Origin: a virus
DNA length: 56,903 nt
IMG/VR virus record: IMGVR_UViG_3300035670_000254
Coordinates: 1 to 56,903 of that record
Direction: 5' to 3' (one strand)
This document shows, one piece after another, positions 2,507-32,575 of this stretch. A program made the translations under genes and the position numbers. Position 1 is the stretch's first letter. The number at the start of each line of letters is the position of its first letter. Below the pieces are notes generated by a model. The model saw only the letters and a program-made list of their open reading frames with translations, was not told the origin of the DNA and ran no database searches.

Positions 2507-4045
2507 ATGTCAATTGAGTCAACGCATCCTCTATTTGATAAGTTTCTTCCTGTGTGGGAGAAACTTGAAGATGTTTACGAAGGTCAGGAAAAAATTAAGG
2601 AAGAAGGCCCGAAGTATTTGCCTCACCTTCCCTCAATGATTTTGGACGGTATTAAGTCAGAAAATGATCTGGGCTATCAGCGCTATAAACAGTATCTGCT
2701 TCGCGCTAACTTCCCGGACGACTATTCTGAAGCTGTTCGAAACAATCACGGTCTGCTGTGGAGTAAACCGCCGACGATTCAATTGCCTGCGGGTATGGAA
2801 TACATGATGGAGAAAGCTACGCGCGACGGTCAGTCTTTGCCCGCGCTGCTTTCCCTCGTGAACGAAATGCAACTTCGCAACGGTCGCGTTGGTCTGCTGC
2901 TGGATATGAGTTCTTCTCCTAGCGTTGATAACAAACCTTTTATCAGCGTCTACTATGCCAAGAATATCCGAAATTGGGATAAGTCAGACGGCGGTGATCA
3001 GGTTGAACGTGATTCGTTGAATTTGGTTGTTCTTGACGAATCGAAAGACGTCCGTAACGGCGATTTTGATTGGACCTTTGAAAAACGTTTCCGCGTACTT
3101 CAGCTGGGCTCTTTAGGTAACGAAGATGCCGAAGGTGAAGATGGTGTTGTTTATAAGCAAGGTCTTTTCGTTGAAGATGCTTATAGCGAAGAGAATATGC
3201 TGACACCTGTTTATCGTGGGAAATCGTTGGAAGAAATACCGTTCATTGCTATTAATGCATCAGACTGTATGATCGACCCTGACGTGCCTCCGCTTCTGGG
3301 CTTAGCTAATCTTTGCTTGTCAATGTACATTAGTGACGCTGACTATCGCCAACACCTGTACTTACAAGGTCAAGATACTTTAGTACGTATTGGGGCCTCA
3401 GGCGCAGGAACCGAAGACGGCGAAGCCCCGGCGCGTGTTGGTGCGGGCGCAGTGATGGACGTTGCTCTGGGCGGTGACGTTAAATACGTTGGTGTTGAAT
3501 CACGAGGCCTGGAAGAAGAACGTTTAGCCTTGCAGAACGACAAAGCTGAAGCGCAGCTTAAAGCTGGTCAGATGGTTAACAACACCAAAGGTAGTCAGGA
3601 GTCAGGGGAAGCCCTCCGGACCCGCATCGGCGCGCGCACTGCAAGCCTTGTACAGATCGCGAAAACCGGGGCCAACGGCTTAGAGATGCTTCTTAAGATC
3701 TGTGCTAAGTGGATGGGCGAAGACCCGGAAAAAGTTCGCATCATCCCGAATCTGGACTTTTCGAAAGCTCTGTTTAGCGGTCAGAACTTGGTTCAGACGA
3801 TGGCCGCGCGTAAACTCGGCGCACCTGTTTCGCTTCAAACTATCCATAAGTATCTGGTAGATCAGTCGTTAACCGATCTTACCTTCGAAGAAGAAATGAC
3901 TCTGATGAAGGAAGAATTTGACAAATATCCGTTCTTAATGGAAATGATGCAAGCCGGGGCCGCTGACCAAAATCCTCAGCAGCAAGCACAGAAGTCTGAT
4001 GTAAGTTCAACGGGCGTTCCGCAAGGAAAACAGTCTGGACAATAA
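2507..4045 (+). CDS. Portal protein (DUF4055-like)
   Basis: This 512-residue protein lies between terminase and scaffold, the usual portal position, and has the size and composition of DUF4055 portal proteins. These form the dodecameric ring at the capsid vertex through which DNA passes. The C-terminal half has a long helical stretch (RLALQNDKAEAQLKAGQMV) typical of the portal stem and wing, and the tail end is Gln-rich. The start is the ATG one base after the terL stop; in-frame codons further upstream lie within terL. Identification is from context and recall of the family. Confidence 0.85.
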   Translation: MSIESTHPLFDKFLPVWEKLEDVYEGQEKIKEEGPKYLPHLPSMILDGIKSENDLGYQRYKQYLLRANFPDDYSEAVRNNHGLLWSKPPTIQLPAGMEYMMEKATRDGQSLPALLSLVNEMQLRNGRVGLLLDMSSSPSVDNKPFISVYYAKNIRNWDKSDGGDQVERDSLNLVVLDESKDVRNGDFDWTFEKRFRVLQLGSLGNEDAEGEDGVVYKQGLFVEDAYSEENMLTPVYRGKSLEEIPFIAINASDCMIDPDVPPLLGLANLCLSMYISDADYRQHLYLQGQDTLVRIGASGAGTEDGEAPARVGAGAVMDVALGGDVKYVGVESRGLEEERLALQNDKAEAQLKAGQMVNNTKGSQESGEALRTRIGARTASLVQIAKTGANGLEMLLKICAKWMGEDPEKVRIIPNLDFSKALFSGQNLVQTMAARKLGAPVSLQTIHKYLVDQSLTDLTFEEEMTLMKEEFDKYPFLMEMMQAGAADQNPQQQAQKSDVSSTGVPQGKQSGQ

Positions 4046-4051
4046 AACCCC

Positions 4052-4089
4052 TGGTATAATATAGTGACTAGCGCCCAATGTCGGGCGCT
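4052..4089 (+). promoter_or_regulatory. Extended -10 promoter with 5' hairpin, upstream of scaffold gene
   Basis: TGGTATAAT at 4052-4060 is an extended -10 element with no convincing -35. A perfect 7-bp hairpin (AGCGCCC 4070-4076, GGGCGCT 4083-4089) would begin within a few bases of the expected transcript start. It could stabilise the 5' end of the capsid mRNA or act as a weak terminator for the portal transcript. Confidence 0.6.
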
Positions 4090-4119
4090 TCTAATTGTTG
4101 CATGGCAACAGGAGAAAAC

Positions 4120-4995
4120 ATGAAACGCAATCTTATGACCGTCGGTATCCTCAAAGCTCTTATCCCGGTCCGTCCTGGTGACGGTACGCCTGAGCTGGAA
4201 CTGAGCTATGAAAGCCAGGATGATATCCCCGCAGGCTTCGAATCGCTGTATACCGAAAAAGATGGCAAGTTTACGCTCACTCGCGTAAAAGGCCTCAAAA
4301 CCACAGCCGACATCGAACGCCTCCAGACGGCTCTGAACAAAGAGCGTTCTGATCATAAAACTGTGAAGCAGCAACTCGCCGCTCTCGCATCCCACGGCAC
4401 CGTCGAGGATATCGTTGCACAGCTGGAGCGTATCCCCGAGCTCGAGGCTAAGCAGGGGAAAGGCGACCCGGCGGACGTTGAAAAACTGATTAGCGCGCGC
4501 TTAACGCCGCTCCAGCGCAAACTGGACGAAGCTACCAATCAGTTGAAAGAGCGCGATCAGGTGATCGAAAGCTTCAAAGGTAAAGAAGTGAAGGCGACGG
4601 TTGCTGACGCTGTACGTAAGGCCGCTAAATCCCTCAAAATTCGCGACAGCGCAATCGAAGATGCGATTATGTACGGTGAGCGCGTGCTGACGATCGATGA
4701 ATCCGGTAATGTGGTCACGAAAGAAGGTGTCGGTGTAACCCCTTACATCACTGCCGATGACTGGCTGCGCGACCTTCTCCCGAACCGTCAACACTGGCTG
4801 GAAGATTCTTTTGGCGGTGGTGCGCAGGGCGGTAAAGGCGGCAACGGTGCAACTGTTAACCCGTATTCTTACGAAGACTGGTCTGTCAGCAAACAGATGG
4901 AACTGTATCGCGCGAATCCGGAAAAAGCCAAAAAGATGGCAGCACGCCACGGCGTCGATCCGCTGAATCCGAAACGCCCCGCTAAAAAATCCTAA
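4120..4995 (+). CDS. Capsid scaffolding protein
   Basis: A 291-residue, highly charged and largely helical protein located directly before the major capsid protein. Residues about 70-190 form a Lys/Glu/Gln-rich predicted coiled coil with repeated KERDQ/LQRKLDE-type segments, followed by a Gly-rich linker (near residue 250) and a basic C-terminus, as in phage scaffolds whose tail binds the coat protein. The start was chosen at 4120 because AGGAG lies just upstream. It has its own candidate promoter. No protease domain was seen. Confidence 0.8.
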   Translation: MKRNLMTVGILKALIPVRPGDGTPELELSYESQDDIPAGFESLYTEKDGKFTLTRVKGLKTTADIERLQTALNKERSDHKTVKQQLAALASHGTVEDIVAQLERIPELEAKQGKGDPADVEKLISARLTPLQRKLDEATNQLKERDQVIESFKGKEVKATVADAVRKAAKSLKIRDSAIEDAIMYGERVLTIDESGNVVTKEGVGVTPYITADDWLRDLLPNRQHWLEDSFGGGAQGGKGGNGATVNPYSYEDWSVSKQMELYRANPEKAKKMAARHGVDPLNPKRPAKKS

Positions 4996-9610: not shown

Positions 9611-10024
9611 ATGGCCAGGCCTTCATTTCGTGATCAATTTGACGCAGCTACCCTGAAAGCTATGCAGGCGGTGTCACGCGAAGCGAAGGCCCGTCTTATG
9701 GGCTTCGTTGGTGCCGTTGTCGACGATACTCCTGTGCTGAACGGCTACCTGAAAGGTAGCTGGCAGATTGTTAAAACCGGGGCAGAGTTTATCGAGGGCC
9801 TCCCTCCCGATCCTTCAAGTCAAGCTACTAAGGCCCGGCTCATCCAGAAGATTAAATATCTTCCCATCCACATGGACTGGCAAATTCTGTTTGGTACGCC
9901 TGTGCCTTACGCGCACAAAGTCGAATATGAAGGCTGGTCAAAACAAGCGCCTTCGGGTATGGTGCGCAAGAATATAGTTCTGGGCGGTGAGCGCTTCAAA
10001 GGCATCTACATAGGAGAATTTTGA
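9611..10024 (+). CDS. Tail-completion protein (HK97 gp10-like)
   Basis: A 137-residue protein with the features of the HK97 gp10/minor tail completion family: N-terminal helix with SREAKARLM, a D(T)PV(L)NGYLKGSW segment near residues 37-50, and VPYAHKVEYEGWSKQAPSGMVR near residues 97-120. It joins the head connector to the tail terminator. Its TGA shares the A of the next ATG. Confidence 0.75.
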   Translation: MARPSFRDQFDAATLKAMQAVSREAKARLMGFVGAVVDDTPVLNGYLKGSWQIVKTGAEFIEGLPPDPSSQATKARLIQKIKYLPIHMDWQILFGTPVPYAHKVEYEGWSKQAPSGMVRKNIVLGGERFKGIYIGEF

Positions 10025-11751: not shown

Positions 11752-12129
11752 ATGGGCAGTTTCAAAAAATATAATACCGTTCGTGACTTTGAAGAAGCAA
11801 TTATCGAAATTCCGGTGATCTATCCGGGCATCGGTGACACAGGCGAAATTATCAAAATTCGTAGTCGTTACAGCCGCGAGTTCCGTGAGGCATCGGCCAA
11901 AGCTGAACGTCAAATTTCCACCATGATGGTTGCCAATAAAGGCGAAATGCCGTCTGAAGATGTTTTGCAAGAGATCGAAAACGCTCAGTTCACAGCCCTT
12001 ATCGCCGAGTGGTCTTTTGACGAAGATCTGACCGCTGAAAACGTCGCGGAATTTATGAAAGCCAACCCGCAAATCCGCGATGAGATCAACCGTAAAGCCG
12101 CGCAGGACTCCCTTTTTTTAAACAAGTAA
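11752..12129 (+). CDS. Tail assembly chaperone, short form (gpG-like)
   Basis: A 125-residue acidic protein between the tube and tape measure genes, where siphophages encode the tail chaperone pair. It should coat the tape measure protein before the tube polymerises. Its last codons run through CCCTTTTTTTAAAC, a slippery site, and the stop at 12127-12129 is 4 bases beyond. A minority of ribosomes shifting by -1 would make the longer form ending at 12494. Confidence 0.85.
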   Translation: MGSFKKYNTVRDFEEAIIEIPVIYPGIGDTGEIIKIRSRYSREFREASAKAERQISTMMVANKGEMPSEDVLQEIENAQFTALIAEWSFDEDLTAENVAEFMKANPQIRDEINRKAAQDSLFLNK

Positions 12130-12494
12130 GGGACGAAACAATTGAATATGCCTTGCTTCACTGGAAGATGGTTATTCCTCCCATTGGTAGCAAGGCATCT
12201 TTAGTTGATCAATTAAAGCACGTCCGTAAAGTAACTGGTAAAACCCCCGCCCAATTAGCTGAATACGAGAAGAAGAAATTACCTCGTGAAACCAGCTACG
12301 TGTACCTTTATTTCCAAGACTTTTACAACGGCGATCAGTTTAGTTATACTGAGCTTCAATCGTGGCAGCAGTTCATGGGCTTTCAACTCGCTTATTGGGA
12401 AGCTGAACTGATACGTCAATTGTGTCTTGAACGCCTTGCCTTCGACTACAAACGTCAACAAGAATTCGTCCAAAATGAGAAGGGTAAGAAATAA
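11752..12494 (+). CDS. Tail assembly chaperone, frameshifted long form (gpGT-like)
   Basis: A -1 shift at 12113-12123 fuses the short chaperone to the downstream frame, which is open from before the slippery site and has no good independent start (first possible codon is a TTG at 12153 with no ribosome site). The predicted fusion is 247 residues; the added T domain is basic and helical (QLAEYEKKKLPRET). Two classic heptamers overlap here, T TTT TTA and T TTA AAC. The T domain stop overlaps the tape measure start as TAATG. In lambda the G:GT ratio matters for tail length assembly. The added residues should be listed as a join, not as a separate protein. Confidence 0.85.
12113..12123 (+). promoter_or_regulatory. 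Programmed -1 frameshift slippery site
   Basis: TTTTTTTAAAC contains both T TTT TTA (12114-12120) and T TTA AAC (12117-12123), each in the zero-frame register needed for tandem tRNA slippage. Either slip gives the same 247-residue length. Confidence 0.85.
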
Positions 12495-15400
12495 TGGCCG
12501 ATTCAGATATTCTGATAAGGGTAAGAACGGACGGTATAGCGGGCGCCGAAACGGCGCTTAATCGTTTGAGGGATGTAGGCGTTCGAACTGAGCTTGTCAC
12601 TGACAGCATGGCGCGAGCCTTTGAACGAAATAACCGCGCAGTACAAGCCAACCAAGTTGCGTTTCGTGCCATGCAAGGTATTGGCATTGTTTCCTTCCTT
12701 GGCGGTATGGCTGGCGCGGTTGCTATGCTTAATGACCAGTATACCAACCTTACTAACAAACTCATCAACGCAAACACAGCGAACGAACGTTTAGTTGATG
12801 TTCAGCAACGTGTCTTTGATATCGCGCAACGTTCACGCACCAGCTTAGAATCTACCGCTACGCTGTACGCCCGAATGGAGCGCTCGCTTAGCCAGTACGG
12901 GGCAACGGCCCAGCAAGTAGCGCGCGTTACTGAAACAGTCAGCAAAGCAATGATTGTTTCTGGTGCGACAACGGCTGAAGCCAACGCTGCGATCATACAG
13001 CTTTCCCAGGGCTTACAGTCTGGTACGTTGCGTGGCGATGAATTTAGATCTGTAATGGAACAGGCTCCGCGTCTTGCGAAAGCAATGGCGGATAGCTTGG
13101 GCGTAACCACAGGTGAACTTCGTGCCTTGTCAATGCAGGGTAAGCTCACCGCTGACGTAGTCGCTGGCGCTATTTACCGGGCTTCTGAAGTGATTGACAA
13201 GGAGTTCAACAATACTGTAGCTACGTTTGGTCAGAAGTTACAGATGGCGCAGAACAACCTGATTCGATTTGCAGGCACGAGCGAATCTGTATCCGGTACA
13301 ACGTCAGCGCTTGGCGATGGTATCCTCTTACTTTCTAACAACTTGGACGTGGTAGCAACAGCAGTCGGTGTTCTTGCTACGGCGTTCACAGGTCGTTTGA
13401 TCACGGCACTCGCAGCCAGCGCTGCCGCTTCTGTGCGTAATACGTTAGCCCAGCAGCAGGAGACACTAGCGGCCCGCGCGCTAACCAGCGCAAGGGTGCA
13501 GGATGCGGCGGCAGCGTATCAACAAGCGCAAGCTGCCCTGGCAACTGCCGCCGCGGAGCGTACTGCTATTCAGGCCGCTTTAGCTGCTAATCAACAGTAT
13601 TACAAAGGCATTGCAACGACCAACGCTTACATTCAGAACACGAGACTGGTAAGAACTGCAACTGCTGAAGTCGCTGTAGCGCAGACTGCCCTTAGTACCG
13701 CACTCAATGTGGCTACCACTCAAGCTCGTGTGGCCGCTGTAGCTATGACTGCTTTACGGACCACAATGGGTCTGCTAGGCGGTCCTGCTGGTATCATTAT
13801 GCTCGCGGTTGGTGCTCTGTATATGTGGAACCAGTCGCAAGAGCAAGCGGTGCAAAATGCGCGAGCCCTTGCAACAGACACTGACACTTTACGTGATCGC
13901 TTAGCCAAGTTAACGACAGAGCAGCAAAAAGCGCTTCAGGTTGAACTACAACGTGCGCAAGTCAAACTCGTTGACCAGTTACGCGAAGAACAGAATGAAC
14001 TCAATGAACTTCAAAACCGGTTATATAATGCTAACCAGGCAATGAAGAACTCAACTGAAGGCTCGTGGGCTTACAAAGACGCGCAGCAGGCAGTTAAAGA
14101 GATCACTGACGATATTACTGTTAAGACTGGCGATCTGTCAACTACACAGACTCAGCTTTCTAACACTCGCTCTAACCTTAAAACTGTCACAGACAATCTG
14201 GCAGAAGGTGAGCGTGGTTTACGCGCAGCGGTGCAAGAAACCAATGCCGCAATGAACCTGGCAACTAAAGCGGCGACTCAACGTTCAGATGATTTAACGA
14301 AAGCGTTACAGGCTCAACAGTCTGAAGCAGATGTTGCAACTCTGAAGTTGAATGGTAACGCTCGGGCTGCTTCTGTACTCGCTGACGTTCAAAGTCGTAT
14401 GCCTAAGGTATATGCGCAGAACAAGGCATTTATTGATGACTTAATTGCAGGTCATAGTGGATTAACGACCGTTATGACCAATGAGCAATTGGGCATTAAA
14501 GAGTTCATTGATCAGGCAGGTAAAGCCTACGACGCGCAGGAAAAACTGCGTCAGAATAAAAAGGATGATGCACAGAGCAAGCGTGACGCGGCTGCCGCAG
14601 TTCGCTATCAAGAGCAGTGGGATAAAGCCTACGAGCGAACTGAAGCGCGTGGGGCAACTGCTATTGACCGTTTGCGCATACAACAAGATGCCGAGGTGCG
14701 GGCTATACAGAACAAGGCGGAGCGGGCGGGCGCTACGCAGGAGCAACTTGGCGCAGCATTACGGGCTATTGATGAGAAATATGCTCGCGAACGTCAAAAG
14801 GTAGCCGATGAATATAACCCGGCGTCTAAGATTGCCACGAACTATCGTGAAGCGCTAGAAACTATTTCACAGCTTCAACGCGCTGGTTTACTGGACGATG
14901 AACAAACTAACCAGGCTAAGCTGCGGGCTGAAGCGACTTACCTTCAAGAGCGTATGCGCTTAGTTCAAGAACAAGCGGTCAGCGAACGTGATCAGCTTCG
15001 CGGCGAGTATGACCCTGTCATTGCAGCGCAAAATCAATACGCCGAAGAGTTAGCCCTTCTCACTGAAGCGCACGACCAGAAGCTAATGGAAGATAACCGC
15101 TTCTACGAACTGCGTCATGCTGCTTATACTCGCTTTTTACAAGAGCAAGGTGTTGCGCAGAATCAGGAAGTGCTTAGCTTTTTAGCTTCAACTAGTACAA
15201 TGGCAGATAGCATGGCCACAGTATTGGCAAGCATGGGTGCTAAGAACTCTGCTGCTTACAAAGCAATGTTTGCGCTGTCAAAGAGTTTTGCAATCGCAGA
15301 AGCGACTATCAAATTGACTCAAGCGACTGTGCAAGCAATGGCAGACCCGACAGCTATTACCCCGATGCAGAAGTTTGCTAACTATGCTGCTGTAGCTGCC

Positions 15401-22001: not shown

Positions 22002-22274
22002 TAGCAATCTATGTGGCATGCATGGGGCAAAAAATTAGCGCAAAACAACTCAAAACCACGGAAGGTGTCGATTCGTCTTGCGCTTAGCTACAGGTGGGAC
22101 AGAAGTGAGACACGCAAGGCTTTGCACCGGTTTGCAGAGCTTTGCGTTCTCTGTGCCATATTTGTGACATGCACACAGAAACAAGATTCATCATCTTCCC
22201 TCTTGTGCCACTGACTTGATGGCTGTGAATGCGGTCAATGCCAGTAAAAACAGTTGGTTAAATGAGGTGCTTCA

Positions 22275-22321
22275 CATTCGTAATGCGAAGGTCGTAGGTT
22301 CGACTCCTATTATCGGCACCA
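22275..22321 (+). other. thrW tRNA-Thr(CGU) 3' fragment, attachment-site-like
   Basis: From the anticodon arm (CATTCGTAATGC) through the T arm (GTAGGTTCGACTCC) to the CCA end, the 47 bases agree with the E. coli thrW gene as I remember it. The 5' part of the tRNA is absent: the preceding bases give a poor acceptor strand and no D stem, so this is not a working tRNA. thrW is the integration site of P22 and CP4-6, and tRNA-targeting phages carry exactly such a 3' tRNA copy as attP core. With no integrase present this is most simply a transferred attachment-site scar. Confidence 0.75.
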
Positions 22322-22353
22322 CCCGCCGCCGTACTCCTTAGCACGCTGAATGA

Positions 22354-23455: not shown

Positions 23456-25420
23456 CTACTGATAACCCATCATTTCCAAATATTTATTGGCCTTAGCGAT
23501 GTAAACATCATGGTTGAGGTTTTCGGGAAACTCATCAGGTAACTCCATCATAGGAACACCACCAGCTGAGTTGGTTACCTTGTTACCGGAAGCTGCATAG
23601 ACCATTTCAGGATAATCCTCGGGACCATAATACCAGCGTACAACTTTCCCTAAATAGTCACCGTTACACACAGCCCCGCCTTTAACGGCGCGTACAACCG
23701 CAAACTTGCGTATATCTTTACACTTAGTGATTGTTTCTTCTACTGGTATATTATCCTTCAACTTAGCCCGAACAGCTTCAATAATAATTTCCCCGCTTGG
23801 GTTTTTAGACAGACCTGAGTCTGCAAACCAACCCTTGCATTTGAGCTTACCTTTATCATCTATCGCTACGTAGTTGTTAACGTTCGCAGAATAGAGCGCA
23901 CGATAGAAGTTGGATTCCATTTCAAATCCTGTTTGTTTCTCCCACCATTTGATAATTTGTTCGACCAGTGGTTCCTGCTCTTCGGGATAGTCAATAACAA
24001 TACCATCAGTGTTGGCAGATATAACAGGTATTCCCATCAGCTCGAAAGCTTCAATTAACATCAGCAAGGAAAGCTGACCTGTAATTGTTACCTGAATGAG
24101 TAGTTGCGGCGCATACAAGACTGACCACATTGAACCCAGCTTACCGAATGAACCGTTGATAACGATCTTCAGTGTTTGTGCTGTTTTCTTGTCACCAGTA
24201 TGTTTCGCGCGAACACGTCGATCTACAATCTTCTTATAGACGCGAAGGAATACTTCACCCAAATGCTCGGGGAATAAGCGTTGGCCAAGTATCACGCTCG
24301 GGTAATAAGAGGTAACGTCGATATCACGCTTCTTCCGGCCTTTTACATAATGGTGGCAGGCTTTTTCTTCAGTTGAGTGCAAACCACCAATACCCATCTG
24401 ATAACTTGCGTTACCGATATTGATGCGCAAGTTTTTTAGCTGCCAGGGTAGTTCAACAGAACCTTTTTCGCTAATGACGAAGTCGCATTTCTTAATCAAG
24501 TCAATAACGCTATTCATCAGCGGTGTCTGGTAAACTAGGAAGCGAGGCACGTTATATTTATATCTACGCCCTGGCTCCACCTTAGCACGCTGTACGCGCT
24601 TCCTCGTTATGCGCTGTATTTCGTGGCGTATAACATCCTCTGCGATTTGGGCATCCGAACGGGAACGAAGGTCAACACCGTATTCTTGTGACATGATCTC
24701 CCGAAGATGTATTTCATCTTGAAGCGACAAGTAAAGCGCTTCGGTAGCATCCAGGTCGTTGATACAGTAATGAAGAACTATTACCATATGGTTCCGCGTT
24801 AGCATCATGTTAGGCGGGAATGGTAAATCCTGAAGTCTCTTACGATGCAGACGGCCCGCACGTTGTTTCAATGAACCGCCAGCGGGTGCAACTTCCATGA
24901 CGTCAATGTGGTTAAGCTTCAGACGTTCCAGTTCTGCGTTTTTGAGTATGTCGCTTGGCCGCCAGTCTTCGGTAATGATACGATCGCTGGCTTCTTTAAG
25001 CTCTGCGTTAGTTGCACCAGCAAGGGCCAGAGTGAGAATAGGTTCGTCGTATCCTAAACCGTTATAGCTGATTAAGAGTACGTTATGAGCTACCCAACTT
25101 AACCATTCAACATTTAGTTCGCATCCCAGATACTTTTCAAAGTAGATTACTTTTTGAGTCAGGATATTTCGGAAAGCTATCAAGAAATAGTTAGGGTAAC
25201 ACTCGATATCGAAAACATGGGGTTCACCATTTTTAACAGCTTTGACTAGTTCTTCTTGACTATAGCGGTTATAAACAGCGCGCAAAGCTACCTCAAGGCC
25301 TGGCAGATAGTCAGGCCTTTCCCAGGTGCGTTCTGGGGGAGTTCGTTTAATTTTTTCTTTCTTAACTTTTGGAGGAGGCGGCAAGTCTTGCCAGAATAAT
25401 CCAATAGCATCAGTTCTCAT
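23456..25420 (-). CDS. B-family DNA polymerase with 3'-5' exonuclease
   Basis: A 654-residue replicative polymerase, compact for the family. The exonuclease domain shows Exo I FDIEC (Asp71, Glu73), Exo II SYNGLGYDE (Asn120 to Asp125) and Exo III YCIND (Tyr218, Asp222). The polymerase domain shows motif A DIDVTSYYPSV (Asp368), motif B KIVINGSFGKLG (Lys418) and motif C SANTDGIVID (Asp472). Motif C is NTDG rather than the usual DTD; the second catalytic Asp is kept. The clamp-like gene upstream overlaps by 4 bases, so the two probably work as a pair. Confidence 0.9.
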   Translation of the reverse strand: MRTDAIGLFWQDLPPPPKVKKEKIKRTPPERTWERPDYLPGLEVALRAVYNRYSQEELVKAVKNGEPHVFDIECYPNYFLIAFRNILTQKVIYFEKYLGCELNVEWLSWVAHNVLLISYNGLGYDEPILTLALAGATNAELKEASDRIITEDWRPSDILKNAELERLKLNHIDVMEVAPAGGSLKQRAGRLHRKRLQDLPFPPNMMLTRNHMVIVLHYCINDLDATEALYLSLQDEIHLREIMSQEYGVDLRSRSDAQIAEDVIRHEIQRITRKRVQRAKVEPGRRYKYNVPRFLVYQTPLMNSVIDLIKKCDFVISEKGSVELPWQLKNLRINIGNASYQMGIGGLHSTEEKACHHYVKGRKKRDIDVTSYYPSVILGQRLFPEHLGEVFLRVYKKIVDRRVRAKHTGDKKTAQTLKIVINGSFGKLGSMWSVLYAPQLLIQVTITGQLSLLMLIEAFELMGIPVISANTDGIVIDYPEEQEPLVEQIIKWWEKQTGFEMESNFYRALYSANVNNYVAIDDKGKLKCKGWFADSGLSKNPSGEIIIEAVRAKLKDNIPVEETITKCKDIRKFAVVRAVKGGAVCNGDYLGKVVRWYYGPEDYPEMVYAASGNKVTNSAGGVPMMELPDEFPENLNHDVYIAKANKYLEMMGYQ

Positions 25421-26373
25421 GGTCTTTGTCCTACCAGTATGCCACGAAAATTTTTACCAAAGAATGTACACGGATTCGGATACAAAGTTAAGTCTGCGGT
25501 ATCCACATTGTTCTTAAGCAACATCAACATTTCTAAAGCATAGATGCCATGAACAGTTTCAGATTGCATGTTGTATGACGCACCTTCTGTTTCGTCTGCG
25601 TGGGTGCGAACAACTCCATTTTCGATATATACGCGCCCGTTATCCGTTGCAAACGGCTTCAGCTTCTCCAGGGCGTCAAACAACGTCGGGTCGATAGTTT
25701 GCGGATTGCTTTCCTGGCTTAACATCTTTTCAACTTGAACAGGCCATCCGTTTTCCATCAAGGTGCTACGCATCCAACAGCCCGACTCATAATGGAAAGT
25801 GATAGAATTTTCGGTTACCTGCGCTCGAACTGGAGTTTCTTTAATCTTAACCAGCGCTTCGACAGCATCAGAAGACAATACAACATCAAGAGGGAATGGG
25901 CTTCCAAACCAATATTGAGCAAGGCAGACGTTGTTGGTTGCAAATGCTGAACCTCCCTTAATAAGGACAGACATACTAAATCGCCTACTAGCATCAGAGC
26001 CGATAAAAGGACCCACAGTTTTAAGAGCGGTGATAAGTTCTGCTCCGTTAATCTCATACATTTCCCCTTCAGGGTCAACGTGCGCGCCGATTTTATCCGT
26101 ACAGGGTATATTGGCTTTAAACGCACCAGATTTAATATTTAACTTACCGTTTGCCAGCATAGTTAGCTGTGTTGCGCTTTCGCAGTTTGCTATAGCCTTT
26201 AGCATTGGGATAGCTTGCGGGGCGCACTCTAAGCTCAACGGGATAGGCGCAGCCATAGCAATGACACCATTAGTGGCCCGGACCATTCCCTCTTTGATCA
26301 AAAAGTGCGTAGTGCCTTCAACAAAGGCTCGCTTACCTACCGCAGATGATGCGAACTTGAGAGCGTCAAGCAT
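25417..26373 (-). CDS. Sliding clamp-like protein (DnaN-like)
   Basis: A 318-residue protein with the repeated beta-alpha layout of a beta-clamp, for example FPLDVVLSSDAVEALVKIKE and PTLFDALEKLKPFATDNGRVYIENGVVRTH. It is slightly shorter than bacterial DnaN (366). It is translationally coupled to the DNA polymerase (4-base overlap), and a polymerase processivity factor is the natural reading. Similarity is at the level of pattern, so a remote-homology search or structure prediction should confirm it. Confidence 0.65.
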   Translation of the reverse strand: MLDALKFASSAVGKRAFVEGTTHFLIKEGMVRATNGVIAMAAPIPLSLECAPQAIPMLKAIANCESATQLTMLANGKLNIKSGAFKANIPCTDKIGAHVDPEGEMYEINGAELITALKTVGPFIGSDASRRFSMSVLIKGGSAFATNNVCLAQYWFGSPFPLDVVLSSDAVEALVKIKETPVRAQVTENSITFHYESGCWMRSTLMENGWPVQVEKMLSQESNPQTIDPTLFDALEKLKPFATDNGRVYIENGVVRTHADETEGASYNMQSETVHGIYALEMLMLLKNNVDTADLTLYPNPCTFFGKNFRGILVGQRP

Positions 26374-26545
26374 GAGTGTCTTCTCTTATCAGATAGATTT
26401 CACTTTTCCAAGGTTCCTTGAAATCAATATGCTTAATTTCAATCCTTGTTCCCGGAAACTTCATAGCCTGTTCAATTTCATCTATCCGCCACATAGCAGG
26501 AGGAACATTAGCCATCTCCTGACAATTGCGAAGTATGTTAGCCAT
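26366..26545 (-). CDS. 59-residue protein between clamp and TGT-like gene
   Basis: This frame fills the gap exactly: its ATG overlaps the TAA of the TGT-like gene (TAATG) and its stop overlaps the start of the clamp gene by 8 bases. The sequence begins MANILRNCQEMANVPPAMWR and ends in a mixed charged region. Such tight coupling on both sides supports a real gene. No family recognised. Confidence 0.7.
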   Translation of the reverse strand: MANILRNCQEMANVPPAMWRIDEIEQAMKFPGTRIEIKHIDFKEPWKSEIYLIREDTHA

Positions 26546-27141
26546 TATGGTAACTCCATCCGAGCATTATAAGCCTCATATGCTTGTTTGATTAGTGGGA
26601 GCATGTGGTCGTATCTACTTACCCCGGACCCGTCGCAAGTATGTGCGCCTAATACATGGTACAGCATAAACCTCGCAGGACCGTTAACACGACCAATGTG
26701 AACGTGCTTACCTTTAGCCAGGGCATCCAGCACAGCATCTTGAGCTTCTTCTGATTCTTTGAATTTGTCTGTTCCCCCAATAAATAAAGCTCCAGCCTCA
26801 TCGGGCATACCATTATATCCATCTTGCGCAACAAAAGCTTTAACATAACCATCAGCGAGATGGTTAAAATCATTCCACATTTGTTGTGTTGTGATATGGC
26901 AGCCAACTTTATCGGGTATGCAAACAAATAAACATTGAGTTCTTTGTTCCCATTCTCTCTTAAGGAGAGATATGAACTCTTTTTCTCTTAGGCCGCTAAA
27001 CGCCCCGTTGTCAATCGCATATACAGGTTCACCTCGGCGATAACGAGTTAAAGGCGTTAAGAGCTGACCCGCGATACCTTCAGCCCATTGCAATTTTCTA
27101 AATGCTACTCTATCCCTGTGCCCATCTATCAGAAATTGCAT
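26545..27141 (-). CDS. Second, short TGT/DpdA-like protein
   Basis: A 198-residue protein with the marks of the tRNA-guanine transglycosylase barrel: YAIDNGAFSG (Asp44, equal to the base-binding Asp of TGT 'DSGGFQ'), GALFIGGTDKF (residues 117-127), KHVHIGRVNG (145-154) and HTCDGSGVSRYD with Asp170 as candidate nucleophile. It is much shorter than the neighbouring DpdA (307 residues) and bacterial TGT (about 375), and no zinc site is visible. It lies 2 bases after DpdA. It could be a second DNA transglycosylase with another sequence preference, a partner subunit, or a related barrel hydrolase. Confidence 0.7.
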   Translation of the reverse strand: MQFLIDGHRDRVAFRKLQWAEGIAGQLLTPLTRYRRGEPVYAIDNGAFSGLREKEFISLLKREWEQRTQCLFVCIPDKVGCHITTQQMWNDFNHLADGYVKAFVAQDGYNGMPDEAGALFIGGTDKFKESEEAQDAVLDALAKGKHVHIGRVNGPARFMLYHVLGAHTCDGSGVSRYDHMLPLIKQAYEAYNARMELP

Positions 27142-27143
27142 CG

Positions 27144-28067
27144 TCAGAACAACTCCATTATTTTTGGTTCGAAAACACGCGAATGTTTATCCTTGTTGAT
27201 GCGCTCTGCTATTTGCCGATAGCTCCACATGTTGAAGGTTGCGCGTGTTTCGTAAATTGTGGTCAAACGTTGTAAATCGAACCCCGACTCTTCAATAACT
27301 TGGTCTATATAAGCCCGCTCGAGGGGGTTGAGAGTAAGAACGTGCCTTCCGGCTTCGTGAATGGTGCCAGCTTTCTCTGAAACTCGATAAGGTACTCCGG
27401 TCGGGATGAACATCGATCCATAAGCTCCGAACTGAATCCAGGATGAAGAATCAACGGAATACCACGGGTATCTTTCCATGACTCGGACAGATGTGATACC
27501 GAAAGCATGGAACTTAGCTTTTGGACGTCCTGCACCGTCAATGATGTATTTTTCCCAGATACGATCGAGCCAGATGATAAGTTGCTCAACAGTTTTTCCG
27601 ACCATGCCGCCGAGTGTGATGTAGGGATATTTAGACATGTAATATTCAAGATATCTCTCATCCTCGCCGAAGTGAAAACAGGGTAGTGGAGTAACTCCTC
27701 TGGCTTCCATTTCATTTTGATTGCGCCAAGTCTGTAAGGGGTCGCCAATCCCATCAAGGACTGAAGCCATGATGACGCCGTCGTCTTTTCTGATGATATC
27801 TTCGTTTTCTTGAATGTAGCGACAATAGCCAGGTAGGCTGATCGTTGCTCCCATGTTCCAAGCAGAGAAAGCCCCTGAGTCAAGAAACACTTGAGCTCCG
27901 TCGGCTCGCATTTCATCAACGTATTTTTGGCGATTAACATAGTGATAGGATTCCAATATGTTGGGGATGGTATCCACAATTTCAGCTTCGCGTTCGTTCA
28001 GCTTCGGATACGTCGACTGACCCTTGCGAAAGCTGTTAGTATAAACCGCAGCAAGGTATAGATTCAT
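27144..28067 (-). CDS. dpdA: DpdA-like DNA-guanine transglycosylase
   Basis: A 307-residue TGT-superfamily protein. It would exchange guanine in DNA for a 7-deazaguanine base such as preQ0. Motifs: FLDSGAFSAW with Asp63 (base recognition), TLGGMVGKT with Gly153-Gly154, KFHAFGITS (185-193) and WYSVDSSSWIQFGAYG with Asp206 as candidate nucleophile. The zinc-binding CxCxxC-H of tRNA-modifying TGTs is missing, as in phage DpdA proteins. The surrounding preQ0 genes (28358-32527) provide the substrate. The modification protects phage DNA from host restriction, as shown for relatives such as CAjan. Confidence 0.85.
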   Translation of the reverse strand: MNLYLAAVYTNSFRKGQSTYPKLNEREAEIVDTIPNILESYHYVNRQKYVDEMRADGAQVFLDSGAFSAWNMGATISLPGYCRYIQENEDIIRKDDGVIMASVLDGIGDPLQTWRNQNEMEARGVTPLPCFHFGEDERYLEYYMSKYPYITLGGMVGKTVEQLIIWLDRIWEKYIIDGAGRPKAKFHAFGITSVRVMERYPWYSVDSSSWIQFGAYGSMFIPTGVPYRVSEKAGTIHEAGRHVLTLNPLERAYIDQVIEESGFDLQRLTTIYETRATFNMWSYRQIAERINKDKHSRVFEPKIMELF

Positions 28068-28357: not shown

Positions 28358-29005
28358 TCATTTACAGGCTTCAAGAAACTCGCGACGCCATGTATCTGCT
28401 TCAAGGTAATGCTCAATGGTGCTAATATCCGTAGCTCCCCGGAAAGCTTTGGTAATCGTGCTGGAGCCGCAGGACTGTTTAACTCCGCGCGACTCCATGC
28501 ACATATGGCGAGCGTCGATGTAGACGCATACGGCCTTCGGTTGCAGGTGTTCGTTAATTGCATCTGCGATCTGGTTAGTCAGACGTTCCTGAACCTGGAG
28601 GCGGCGGGCAAAAGCGTCAACCACACGGCTCAATTTACTGAGCCCGACAATTTTACCGTTGGGCACATAACCCACTACCGCGCGACCGATGATGGGGGCC
28701 ATGTGATGTTCGCAATGGCTATAAACCGGGATATCACGAACGATAACCATTTCGTTGGTACCTTCTGCACCGTCTTCGAACACTTTGAACAGATCGGCGA
28801 TTTCAACTTTATAACCGCCGAACCAGGTTTCATAAGCTTTCGCGACACGATCAGGGGTTTCAATGAGGCCCGGGCGCAGAAGCATACCTTCAGAACCGCC
28901 TTCGATGATGTTCAGGATACCGCTGATATAATAAGCGATTTCGTCACGTTGAGGATTTTCGGAATCTGATTCTGCTTTAATACCGTTCAGTTTTAACTGT
29001 TCCAT
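28358..29005 (-). CDS. folE: GTP cyclohydrolase I
   Basis: A 215-residue enzyme converting GTP to dihydroneopterin triphosphate, the first step to preQ0. The zinc and active-site motifs are intact: YSHCEHHMAP (Cys98, His100, His101), GLSKLSR (121-127), and ARHMCMESRGVKQ with Cys169. The start at 29005 overlaps the queD stop as TAATG. Length and motifs fit a normal GCH1 (E. coli 222). Confidence 0.95.
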   Translation of the reverse strand: MEQLKLNGIKAESDSENPQRDEIAYYISGILNIIEGGSEGMLLRPGLIETPDRVAKAYETWFGGYKVEIADLFKVFEDGAEGTNEMVIVRDIPVYSHCEHHMAPIIGRAVVGYVPNGKIVGLSKLSRVVDAFARRLQVQERLTNQIADAINEHLQPKAVCVYIDARHMCMESRGVKQSCGSSTITKAFRGATDISTIEHYLEADTWRREFLEACK

Positions 29006-29577
29006 TATTTGCTGTACTCCACATGGCATTTAGAAGTTTCTTCGATGACGCATTTTACCAGCTCAACGCCATGTTCGGCAAGCAACATCGGGCCAATAAC
29101 GTCGACCATATGAGCGGCCAGGTTTTCAGCGGTAGGGTTGAAAGGCAGCGATACCAGCGAATTGAAGAAATGATTTTGATCATTTTCTGAGATGTACTCT
29201 GCCATTTCCTCTTCAAATTCCACCAGGGTTTTCAAACCATTGATCAGATCATCCTTTTCCCAATGCAGGAATTTATGATCCCAATTATCTTCCAGCCACT
29301 GGCAGAGTGTAGTCTTAACAACACTGAAGTCGATAACGCGACCAACATCGTCCAGCTTGGTACGATCGTTAACCGTCATGTTGCGGTAAGTCGGTTTAAA
29401 TCCTTGGCCCGGAATATGGGCAGCTTTACCCGTTGCGACCGCCACAGTTTTCATTTTCGGCGCGACGTGGAAGTGAAACACGTAATTGTGGCCATGCAGG
29501 TGGCGGCATTTGCTTTCGTGACCTACAACACGATGGCCCGCGCAAATTTCATGTGAACGAATAACTTTGTAAGACAT
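29005..29577 (-). CDS. queD: 6-carboxy-tetrahydropterin synthase
   Basis: A 190-residue QueD/PTPS-family enzyme, second step of preQ0 synthesis. The signature is CRHLHGHNY at residues 24-32 with Cys24 and zinc ligands His28 and His30, plus His15 in AGHRV. HKFLHWEKDD and CVIEETSKCHVEY near the end are the other conserved blocks. It is longer than E. coli QueD (120), the extra length being an insertion around residues 45-75 and 100-145, as in several phage and Campylobacter-type forms. It is coupled to folE. Confidence 0.93.
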   Translation of the reverse strand: MSYKVIRSHEICAGHRVVGHESKCRHLHGHNYVFHFHVAPKMKTVAVATGKAAHIPGQGFKPTYRNMTVNDRTKLDDVGRVIDFSVVKTTLCQWLEDNWDHKFLHWEKDDLINGLKTLVEFEEEMAEYISENDQNHFFNSLVSLPFNPTAENLAAHMVDVIGPMLLAEHGVELVKCVIEETSKCHVEYSK

Positions 29578-29617: not shown

Positions 29618-30103
29618 TTAGGCGACTGTTAAGCCGTTCCGTTTTCTGTTTTCGTAGATGACGTATAATAACGCCGAAGCAAAGAATTTGGAAAGGCTCA
29701 TTGCAAGGATAGATCCCCAGCTGGCATAGCCTATCATATGCAGGAAGATGAAGGAGTCTACCGGGACTGCGATCATAGAGCTGAACACGACCCGTTCATG
29801 GAACGGTTTTTTAGTGATCGTGAATATTGCATAGTCCAGCAGCTCGCTAACCGCGAAAGATGTCACAGACGCGACAACGACAACCGGGTCGCCCAGCCAG
29901 TAGCTAATTAAACAGGCCAGCGCTATAGCCCATAGGACGTGGTGGCCTGCGCTACGTTGCGCGTAGTCGCGTAGCACGAACACACAGCCCACGAAGAAAG
30001 CCATAAGCGGCACAGCGCCCAACGGCGTGGGCACGATTGGCAGGTAGCTGAAGCCCAGGTTTACGAACACAACCATTAAGAGGTAAGCGAAAATGAACTT
30101 CAT
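29618..30103 (-). CDS. yhhQ: YhhQ-type preQ0 transporter
   Basis: A 161-residue VUT-family (DUF165) inner-membrane protein with about five hydrophobic segments. The family pattern is clear: VFVLRDYAQR near residues 43-52, SVTSFAVSELLDYAIF (79-94) and a late SLSKFFASALLYVIYE. The E. coli homologue imports preQ0/preQ1. The start overlaps the upstream gene by 4 bases. With de novo genes beside it, the phage appears to draw on two sources of precursor. E. coli YhhQ is longer (221), so this is a trimmed version. Confidence 0.88.
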   Translation of the reverse strand: MKFIFAYLLMVVFVNLGFSYLPIVPTPLGAVPLMAFFVGCVFVLRDYAQRSAGHHVLWAIALACLISYWLGDPVVVVASVTSFAVSELLDYAIFTITKKPFHERVVFSSMIAVPVDSFIFLHMIGYASWGSILAMSLSKFFASALLYVIYENRKRNGLTVA

Positions 30104-30817: not shown

Positions 30818-31552
30818 TTAGAATTTAAAAGGGTTATTTTCTACAAAGGCTGAAAAGCCTTTTTCACGAAGTTGGCAAGCAGGGCACTCGCCGCAGCCAT
30901 AGCCCCACACGTTGTCAGTAGTGTGGTCACCATTATAGCAGGTATGACTATCTTCCAGCACAACTGTCAGAAAATCGACTGCTTTAGCCAGTGCGAACGT
31001 TTCAGCTTTATTTAACCACATTAACGGCGTGGCAATCTCGATATTGGTCTGATAGCCGACGTTTAATGCTGTTTGAAGCAAACGAATAAACTCGTCGCGG
31101 CAATCAGGATAACCGCTGTAGTCGGTTTCGCAGACGCCAGTAATGAGCGTATCTGCACCAACTTTTTGAGCGTATGCGTGAGCTGTAGTTAAGAACAGCG
31201 CATTGCGGTTCGGTACAAAAGAGGCCGGAAGGTTGGAGTTCTGCGCGTGTTTAGCGCTAACGTCTTTTTGTTCGGTGCCGCGAATGAGCGCGCTATTGCC
31301 GATAGATTGCAGCGCAGGAATCGAAAACACGGTGAAGGGTACGTTGTGTTCTTCACAGATGCGCGCGGCGCAGTGGATTTCAACTTCGTGCTTTTGTCCG
31401 TAGACAAAACCAACAGCGTGAACAGTTTCAAAGTTGCGAAGGGCAAGGCCCAGGCAAGTTACGGAGTCCTGACCGCCAGACAGGACAACAACGGCGGATT
31501 TGCCCTTCACACTTTCAACAACGTTGTACACTTTTTCAGATGATACGTTCAT
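30818..31552 (-). CDS. queC: 7-cyano-7-deazaguanine synthase (preQ0 synthase)
   Basis: A 244-residue enzyme that turns CDG and ammonia with ATP into preQ0. The PP-loop SGGQDS is at residues 25-30; YGQKHEVE (51-58) and NRNALFL are conserved blocks, and the zinc knuckle is Cys205, Cys220, Cys223 and Cys226. The protein has standard QueC length and no fused amidotransferase (Gat) domain, unlike the Gat-QueC of phage 9g; thus the final base should be preQ0, not archaeosine. The ATG at 31552 is preferred over an upstream TTG because AAGGT lies at proper spacing. Confidence 0.95.
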   Translation of the reverse strand: MNVSSEKVYNVVESVKGKSAVVVLSGGQDSVTCLGLALRNFETVHAVGFVYGQKHEVEIHCAARICEEHNVPFTVFSIPALQSIGNSALIRGTEQKDVSAKHAQNSNLPASFVPNRNALFLTTAHAYAQKVGADTLITGVCETDYSGYPDCRDEFIRLLQTALNVGYQTNIEIATPLMWLNKAETFALAKAVDFLTVVLEDSHTCYNGDHTTDNVWGYGCGECPACQLREKGFSAFVENNPFKF

Positions 31553-31562
31553 AGTCAATACC

Positions 31563-31825: not shown

Positions 31826-32527
31826 TTACTCCACATTTAACAGTTTATGAATCTGAAGTTGAACGGTATAGTTAAACTTCATTGCACTTTCCAGGACCGC
31901 TGCAACGTTGTCGGCGTTATAGCCAGCGTCTTGCTCGTCCATCGGTTGCAGGTAGATTTTACCCTTAAATGACTTTGGAGGCCTCGCAATAAATGGCGTA
32001 GCTCGGTGATCAAGAGCTTGCAAGGGTAAACCGTCCTCCTGTCGCACGCTGTTAGCTTTTAAAACGTACTTAAAGGCGTTGGCCCGATGCAGGGCGCTCG
32101 GATGCAACTTAGCGGTTTTCGGCGAGCATACAACCGTGACCAACTGCGACAGCTCGAGAGGAATAGCCATGCTGCCGTTGGTTTCGATTTGCACGTCGAA
32201 ATCGTTTTCAATCAGGAAATCGCAGAAAGGAGTGATGTTCTGACGGAAAGGTTCGCCGCCGGAAATGACGATCAGGTTTGCGTTGCTGCGCGTTTCCATT
32301 TTCTGGTGATACACGTGGTCAAGAATATCGCCGTAGGTCATACGTTCGCGACCTTCAGTATATTCAGTATCACAACCAGGGCACTGGAGATTGCAGCCAG
32401 CAAGACGAACGAAAACAGCAGGGCGACCGCAGAAAGGGCCTTCACCTTGAATAGTGCTGAAAATGGAATGAACTTCGAGGGTAGATTGATAATCTTTCTT
32501 TTCGGGGGTCTGAGAGTTCAGCTTCAT
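31826..32527 (-). CDS. queE: 7-carboxy-7-deazaguanine synthase
   Basis: A 233-residue radical-SAM enzyme that makes CDG from 6-carboxy-tetrahydropterin. The iron-sulfur motif is CNLQCPGC with Cys45, Cys49 and Cys52, preceded by FSTIQGEGPFCGRPAVFVRLAG, the QueE signature. VISGGEPF and IETNGS blocks are present. The ATG at 32527 was chosen over an upstream one because the conserved N-terminus starts soon after and AGGGA lies before it. Confidence 0.95.
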   Translation of the reverse strand: MKLNSQTPEKKDYQSTLEVHSIFSTIQGEGPFCGRPAVFVRLAGCNLQCPGCDTEYTEGRERMTYGDILDHVYHQKMETRSNANLIVISGGEPFRQNITPFCDFLIENDFDVQIETNGSMAIPLELSQLVTVVCSPKTAKLHPSALHRANAFKYVLKANSVRQEDGLPLQALDHRATPFIARPPKSFKGKIYLQPMDEQDAGYNADNVAAVLESAMKFNYTVQLQIHKLLNVE

Positions 32528-32575
32528 GGTTTTATCCCTGTTTCCTAGGCGAGTGAGCCAGATTTTAGTCAAAAA

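Follow-up and report, generated by a model that had tools for sequence, protein, structure and literature searches.

The stretch of DNA analysed here (hereafter the window) spans 56,903 nucleotides of the IMG/VR virus record IMGVR_UViG_3300035670_000254 and represents a relative of Enterobacter phage EC151 (Queuovirinae). Its minus strand carries a full preQ0 gene set, comprising FolE (GTP cyclohydrolase I, 28358-29029), which matches the FolE annotated in related phages, QueD (29005-29577), QueC (30818-31558) and QueE (31826-32572), each with matches in related phages, and a YhhQ/QPTR-like preQ0 transporter (29618-30103) that matches the 'putative preQ0 transporter' of EC151 at E 2e-91 and TIGR00697 weakly (18.9 bits). 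On the same strand lies a CAjan/9g-type DNA 7-deazaguanine transglycosylase, DpdA (27144-28067, 307 aa), which is homologous to the DpdA of CAjan and falls into phrog_887 (7.5e-81), a family annotated as queuine tRNA-ribosyltransferase. DpdA-type enzymes are the known means of swapping a guanine base in DNA after replication. Two bases beyond the DpdA reading frame (27142-27143), a second and much smaller frame begins on the minus strand (26545-27141, 198 aa), and the next gene downstream of it encodes a DNA polymerase sliding clamp that is annotated in relatives (25417-26373, minus strand). In EC151 the slot between DpdA and the clamp holds a different reading frame (3987-4406, 139 aa, 'swarming motility protein'), so that this position looks like a cargo site. 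The only phage tRNA in the window is a tRNA-Thr(CGT) at 22240-22321, which is not a GUN tRNA; the DNA around it (22150-22330) is about 79% identical to the thrW prophage attachment region of lambdoid phages such as HK542, a stretch that is unexpected in a Queuovirinae-type phage and may be a recombination scar.

The original prediction described the two adjacent frames as a possible pair of DNA transglycosylases, the second at nearly half the size of usual TGTs, and suggested that the smaller protein might add a sequence context, form a heterodimer with DpdA, or remove or read the base. Both frames lie as it had placed them, and the key elements that it quoted from the small protein are all present, namely AIDNGAFSG (residues 42-50), IGGT (residues 121-124) and CDGSG with Asp170; the size comparison also holds, 198 residues being 53% of the length of E. 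coli TGT (375 aa). The small protein was assigned to phrog_15826 (1.3e-20), a family of unknown function, and has homologues in Vibrio and Escherichia phages at 57-72% identity. Together with at least 277 relatives in IMG/VR, these homologues and the family membership indicate a gene rather than a chance reading frame. Among cultured phages the family is rare, with only 22 and 24 members recovered when 50,697 records were searched twice by tblastn; in uncultured phages it is common, with at least 277 and at least 321 relatives in two IMG/VR scans, and thirteen bacterial genomes also hold a copy, several of them adjoining yhhQ. Cultured actinophage copies (Mycobacterium Fishburnevirus and Arthrobacter phages) already bear the label 'DpdA-like tRNA-guanine transglycosylase'. 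The copies in Erythrobacter phages are listed as 'DarB-like antirestriction', which proved to be a matter of annotation only, the frame of 213 aa being the same small protein with no fusion.

Sequence searches with the small protein returned no Pfam match at E values up to 1, the TGT profile PF01702 included, and a direct PDB sequence search with the protein or with its family profile gave only noise. Structure modelling, which the original prediction had proposed as a check, was more informative. An AlphaFold2 model of the small protein, built from an alignment of 35 homologues, was confident (pLDDT 96.3, pTM 0.92) and showed a TGT-type (beta/alpha)8 barrel; in a Foldseek search against the PDB, TGTs occupied ranks 1 to 17 (best E 2.7e-5, probability 1.00), and phage queuine tRNA-ribosyltransferases, including the DpdA of Sonali, were among the best viral matches. 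The corresponding model of the window DpdA, made from four sequences, was too poor for a structural comparison with the small protein (pLDDT 43.9). At the level of profiles, a family profile of 81 non-redundant homologues aligned with a profile of 14 DpdA sequences (four having been too shallow) at E 5.2e-5 and a probability of 67%, pairing DNGAFSG with DSGAFSA, PDKVG with LDGIGD, and FIGGT with TLGGM. The match to TGT was weaker (E 0.012) and placed Gln106 opposite the glutamine of the TGT VQG motif, IGG opposite VGG, and Asp170 opposite Asp264 of the E. coli enzyme. With the phrog_887 profile the family gives only borderline matches (E 4e-4 to 2e-3), and the small protein is not a member of phrog_887. 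Taken together, the model, the Foldseek ranking and the profile alignment make the predicted kinship to TGT more than a coincidence of motifs.

The conserved positions point in the same direction. The catalytic aspartates and base-pocket motifs follow the TGT/DpdA order (D..D..Q/H..GG..D), and five TGT-type motif residues, Asp44, Asp77, Gln106, Gly123 and Asp170, are identical in 81 of the 81 homologues, as are Pro30, Pro76, Phe120, Lys128, His148, Gly150, Arg151, Asn153 and Gly171. On the minus strand of the window, the codon of Asp44 lies at 27010-27012 (motif IDNGAFSG, profile-aligned with Asp63 in the DSGAF of DpdA), that of Asp77 at 26911-26913 (PDKVG, aligned with LDGIGD of DpdA), that of Gln106 at 26824-26826 (VAQDG, aligned with the VQG glutamine of TGT), and that of Asp170 at 26632-26634 (CDGSG, aligned with the catalytic Asp264 of E. 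coli TGT). Such conservation throughout the homologues argues for an active enzyme rather than a silent subunit. We found no C-terminal zinc site of the CxCxxC...H type in the small protein, which contains four cysteines in total and ends soon after the Asp170 motif; as modelled, it is a pared-down transglycosylase that lacks the zinc domain.

To place the family in its genomic setting, the best 80 loci of each IMG/VR scan (at least 277 and at least 321 relatives) were collapsed at 70% identity into 31 groups of the window branch and 49 of the actinophage branch, and their neighbourhoods were surveyed with profiles of QueC, QueD, QueE, FolE, YhhQ and DpdA. As a control, 80 loci centred on a Dcm-like methyltransferase in phages of the same kind were collapsed into 61 groups; this methyltransferase alignment replaced an earlier control scan with a DnaB protein, which had returned a single locus, the source itself. 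A queC, queD, queE or yhhQ gene lay within 300 bp of the small gene in 12 of the 31 and 37 of the 49 groups (49/80 in total), compared with a que or yhhQ gene in none of the 61 control groups, even at 5 kb. All adjacent pairs of the small gene with a que or yhhQ gene were on the same strand, many of them overlapping; 28 of the 82 tree rows lacked both que and yhhQ genes within 1 kb. Counting well-supported branches of the tree alone, at least seven changes were required for the que link and at least six for the YhhQ link, which indicates that the linkage is not one inherited arrangement and arose repeatedly. Representative neighbours were confirmed as QueC (PF06508, 151-198 bits) and Vut_1 (PF02592, 39-47 bits), and the linked QueD and QueE proteins had QueD and QueE as their best NCBIfam matches. 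A protein of about 80 aa (CPxGKLIDxYEI...QEDL) with no Pfam match also recurs beside the small gene (L071:3069-3308, L086:10531-10770 and L014) and is possibly another pathway component.

The most informative loci are three contigs with full preQ0 operons, in the orders queC-queD-queE-small (L216, 65 kb), queC-small-queC-queE-queD (L192, 40 kb) and queD-small-queC-queE (L020, 27 kb). None of the three, which may be incomplete, contained a match to phrog_887, phrog_7068 or PF01702, and as far as their sequences go the small protein is the only visible candidate user of the preQ0 made there. In L192, two QueC homologues (1313-2005 and 3352-3960) lie on either side of the small gene. The complete genomes of two cultured phages, Mycobacterium phage StevieRay and Rhodococcus phage ReqiPine5, carry yhhQ and the small gene as a cassette and have no phrog_887 DpdA; Synechococcus phage Ssp-JY42 likewise has the small gene but no phrog_887 DpdA. 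The linkage to the importer YhhQ would also fit salvage by an enzyme that releases or remodels the base, freeing 7-deazaguanine from degraded nucleic acid or removing misplaced bases rather than inserting them, and glycosidases and transglycosylases work by closely similar mechanisms; however, the three preQ0 operons would then be left without an inserting enzyme, and both the nucleophile and every base-pocket residue are retained, which makes base release quite unlikely. The frequent abutment on QueC raises a further alternative, namely that the small protein attaches 7-deazaguanine to a protein in the manner of Cap10/Cap9 of type IV CBASS. TGT-fold proteins can indeed act on proteins, as does Cap10, a TGT-family enzyme that works with a QueC-like protein (PMC11996544). 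The linked QueC proteins, however, are far nearer to canonical QueC (138.8-145.8 bits, against a cutoff of 150.3) than to QatC (14.9-25.8 bits), the YhhQ-linked majority has no QueC, the small protein had no PADLOC match, and no recurrent cluster with a CD-NTase neighbour was seen; we regard a protein target as highly improbable.

tRNA modification is the ancestral role of the TGT superfamily, the counterpart of Gln106 in TGT is the VQG glutamine, and the pairing with YhhQ equals that of bacterial queuosine salvage, so the small protein could instead put salvaged or newly made 7-deazaguanine into host or phage tRNA or another RNA and thereby tune translation. A single locus adds to this: in L209, the small gene and yhhQ are separated by the gene for a QueF-like protein of 106 aa (9668-9988; PF14489, 30.5 bits), an arrangement hinting at preQ0 import, reduction to preQ1 and then insertion, and suggesting that some members of the family use preQ1. 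QueF was nevertheless absent from nearly all small-gene loci, although bacterial TGT prefers preQ1, and its scarcity indicates that the pathway product is usually preQ0, the substrate of DpdA. The small protein also lacks the tRNA-binding zinc domain, its gene in the window is placed between DpdA and the DNA polymerase clamp, and the sole phage tRNA there is, as noted above, not of the GUN type. An RNA target is thus unlikely, and the lack of a zinc domain, the scarcity of QueF and the DNA-replication genes alongside favour DNA over tRNA.

In the surveyed neighbourhoods, a DpdA gene was found near the small gene in none of the 31 and only two of the 49 non-redundant groups; this absence is not proof, because the contigs are fragments and distant DpdA families could be missed. 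Conversely, DpdA is intact without the small gene in CAjan, EC151 and three further loci (L090, L092 and L093), and the EC151 DpdA is 95% identical to that of the window. The small gene is missing from CAjan, where the clamp and polymerase genes lie directly against each other and a search with the family profile gives no match. In the Escherichia phages phiG7 and SHIN8 (L001 and L002), a common frameshift splits the small gene into two overlapping frames (12001-12593) with DpdA left intact, which shows that the small gene can be dispensable. Across both halves of the split gene, only two of the ten differences between phiG7 and SHIN8 change an amino acid, weak evidence that selection may still act on the two pieces; the gene could have been broken recently, could encode an enzyme in two pieces or could be read through by programmed frameshifting. 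Overall, the DpdA gene and the small gene have been gained and lost independently of each other.

This pattern bears on the specific roles that had been proposed for the small protein. CAjan DpdA alone is credited with modification at both GA and GGC (PMC8306585), and deletion of dpdA in CAjan abolishes all modification (PMC6884629); a second sequence context therefore does not require the small gene, and we set this role aside as the main explanation, though the small enzyme could add a further context. A DpdA partner or regulator, whether as heterodimer or accessory subunit, is suggested in the window phage by the adjacent and probably co-transcribed genes, by the TGT-like nature of both proteins and the precedent of eukaryotic TGT, and elsewhere by the closeness of the two genes in L219 and their occurrence as one cassette in Vibrio phage R29Z and Arthrobacter phage Sonali. 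Yet the family occurs mostly without DpdA, some contigs combine queC-queD-queE and the small gene with no other recognisable transglycosylase, the DpdA of CAjan is functional on its own, and the small-protein active site is invariant, unlike that of a silent subunit. The phyletic pattern rules out an obligate pair, and a partnership restricted to the window phage is very unlikely. What stood of the original prediction is thus a TGT-like enzyme whose active site is intact and which is linked to 7-deazaguanine metabolism, well borne out by fold, conservation and gene linkage; its second-context and heterodimer roles drew less support.

Our preferred reading, to which we assign a probability of roughly 60%, sees the small protein as a miniature 7-deazaguanine transglycosylase of TGT fold that works by itself, most likely on phage DNA. 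Because its relatives usually occur without DpdA and directly next to genes for making or importing the modified base, in the window phage it probably swaps bases as a second enzyme in its own right rather than as a DpdA subunit. A base-exchange mechanism with an aspartate nucleophile is established for TGT. By homology, the small enzyme would replace guanine in a nucleic acid, most likely DNA of the phage itself, with preQ0 or a closely related 7-deazaguanine: Asp170 would act as the nucleophile and displace guanine to form a covalent sugar intermediate, Asp44 would serve as general acid/base, Asp77, Gln106 and the Gly122-Gly123 loop would read and hold the base, and the 7-deazaguanine would then take the place of guanine. 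In most phages the base would be supplied by the neighbouring queC/D/E set or imported via YhhQ, with DpdA not involved; in the window phage the small enzyme would work beside DpdA from a common preQ0 supply, possibly differing from it in target site or preferred base. Computation supports directly how the protein folds, that its active site is invariant, which genes it is linked to and that it does not depend on DpdA; its activity, its base, DNA as its target and any sharing of work with DpdA are inferences.

More broadly, and at somewhat short of even odds, the family may constitute a further, and the smallest known, subfamily of DNA 7-deazaguanine transglycosylases, working alone and mostly on imported base, with a cassette of YhhQ and mini-transglycosylase modifying DNA in hosts that lack the queuosine pathway and with the window phage bringing two independent guanine-exchange activities to bear on one genome. 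If true, this would show how 7-deazaguanine could be present in phages whose hosts lack queuosine genes, and a 198-residue enzyme with complete active-site residues would be the minimal transglycosylase, attractive for structural work and for the engineering of site-specific DNA labelling. Hutinet et al. (2019) reported that the phage preQ0 transporter is uncorrelated with any phage group (PMC6884629), and the cassette of YhhQ and the small gene offers a directly testable answer to why phages carry such a transporter.

We lastly compared the small protein with known systems. In the literature searched, which stopped short of the 2023 work on DpdA subfamilies, we found no description of the family, its size class or its linkage to YhhQ or QueC; an earlier description is possible. 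Like DpdA2 of Vibrio phage nt-1, the small protein is related to TGT, encoded by a phage and found beside preQ0 genes, but DpdA2 has 464 aa and the family profile has no match in the nt-1 record. Cui et al. in 2023 reportedly named DpdA3 (Campylobacter phages) and DpdA4 (archaeal viruses) as viral 7-deazaguanine transglycosylase subfamilies, a description that would also suit the small protein, but the profile matched neither Campylobacter phage CP220 nor halovirus HVTV-1; with no match at E up to 10 in these two or the nt-1 record, identity with DpdA2 or with the Campylobacter phage or HVTV-1 enzymes was rejected. A single-sequence search of 39 records with nt-1 DpdA2 gave no match at all, an uninformative result. 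The small protein resembles Cap10 of type IV CBASS, in which a TGT-family fold works with a QueC-like partner (PMC11996544), but Cap10 is a defence protein acting on protein, and PADLOC did not recognise the small protein. Bacterial and archaeal TGTs (PF01702) share with it the barrel fold (Foldseek E 2.7e-5) and the aligned Asp170/Asp264, Gln and GG motifs; the small protein differs in having about half the length, no zinc-binding C-terminal domain and no Pfam match, and in being phage-borne. From the DpdA enzymes encoded by Escherichia phage CAjan/9g and by bacterial dpd islands it differs in length (198 versus 307 aa), in belonging to another PHROG, in carrying AFVAQDG where DpdA has PCFHFGED, and in occurring mostly without DpdA and often with YhhQ, and it resembles DpdA in motif order, in its preQ0-gene neighbourhood and in profile (E 5e-5). 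The 'DpdA-like tRNA-guanine transglycosylase' of Mycobacterium and Arthrobacter phages belongs to the same family, its name being given by annotation only. The fold and chemistry of the small protein are of a known kind.
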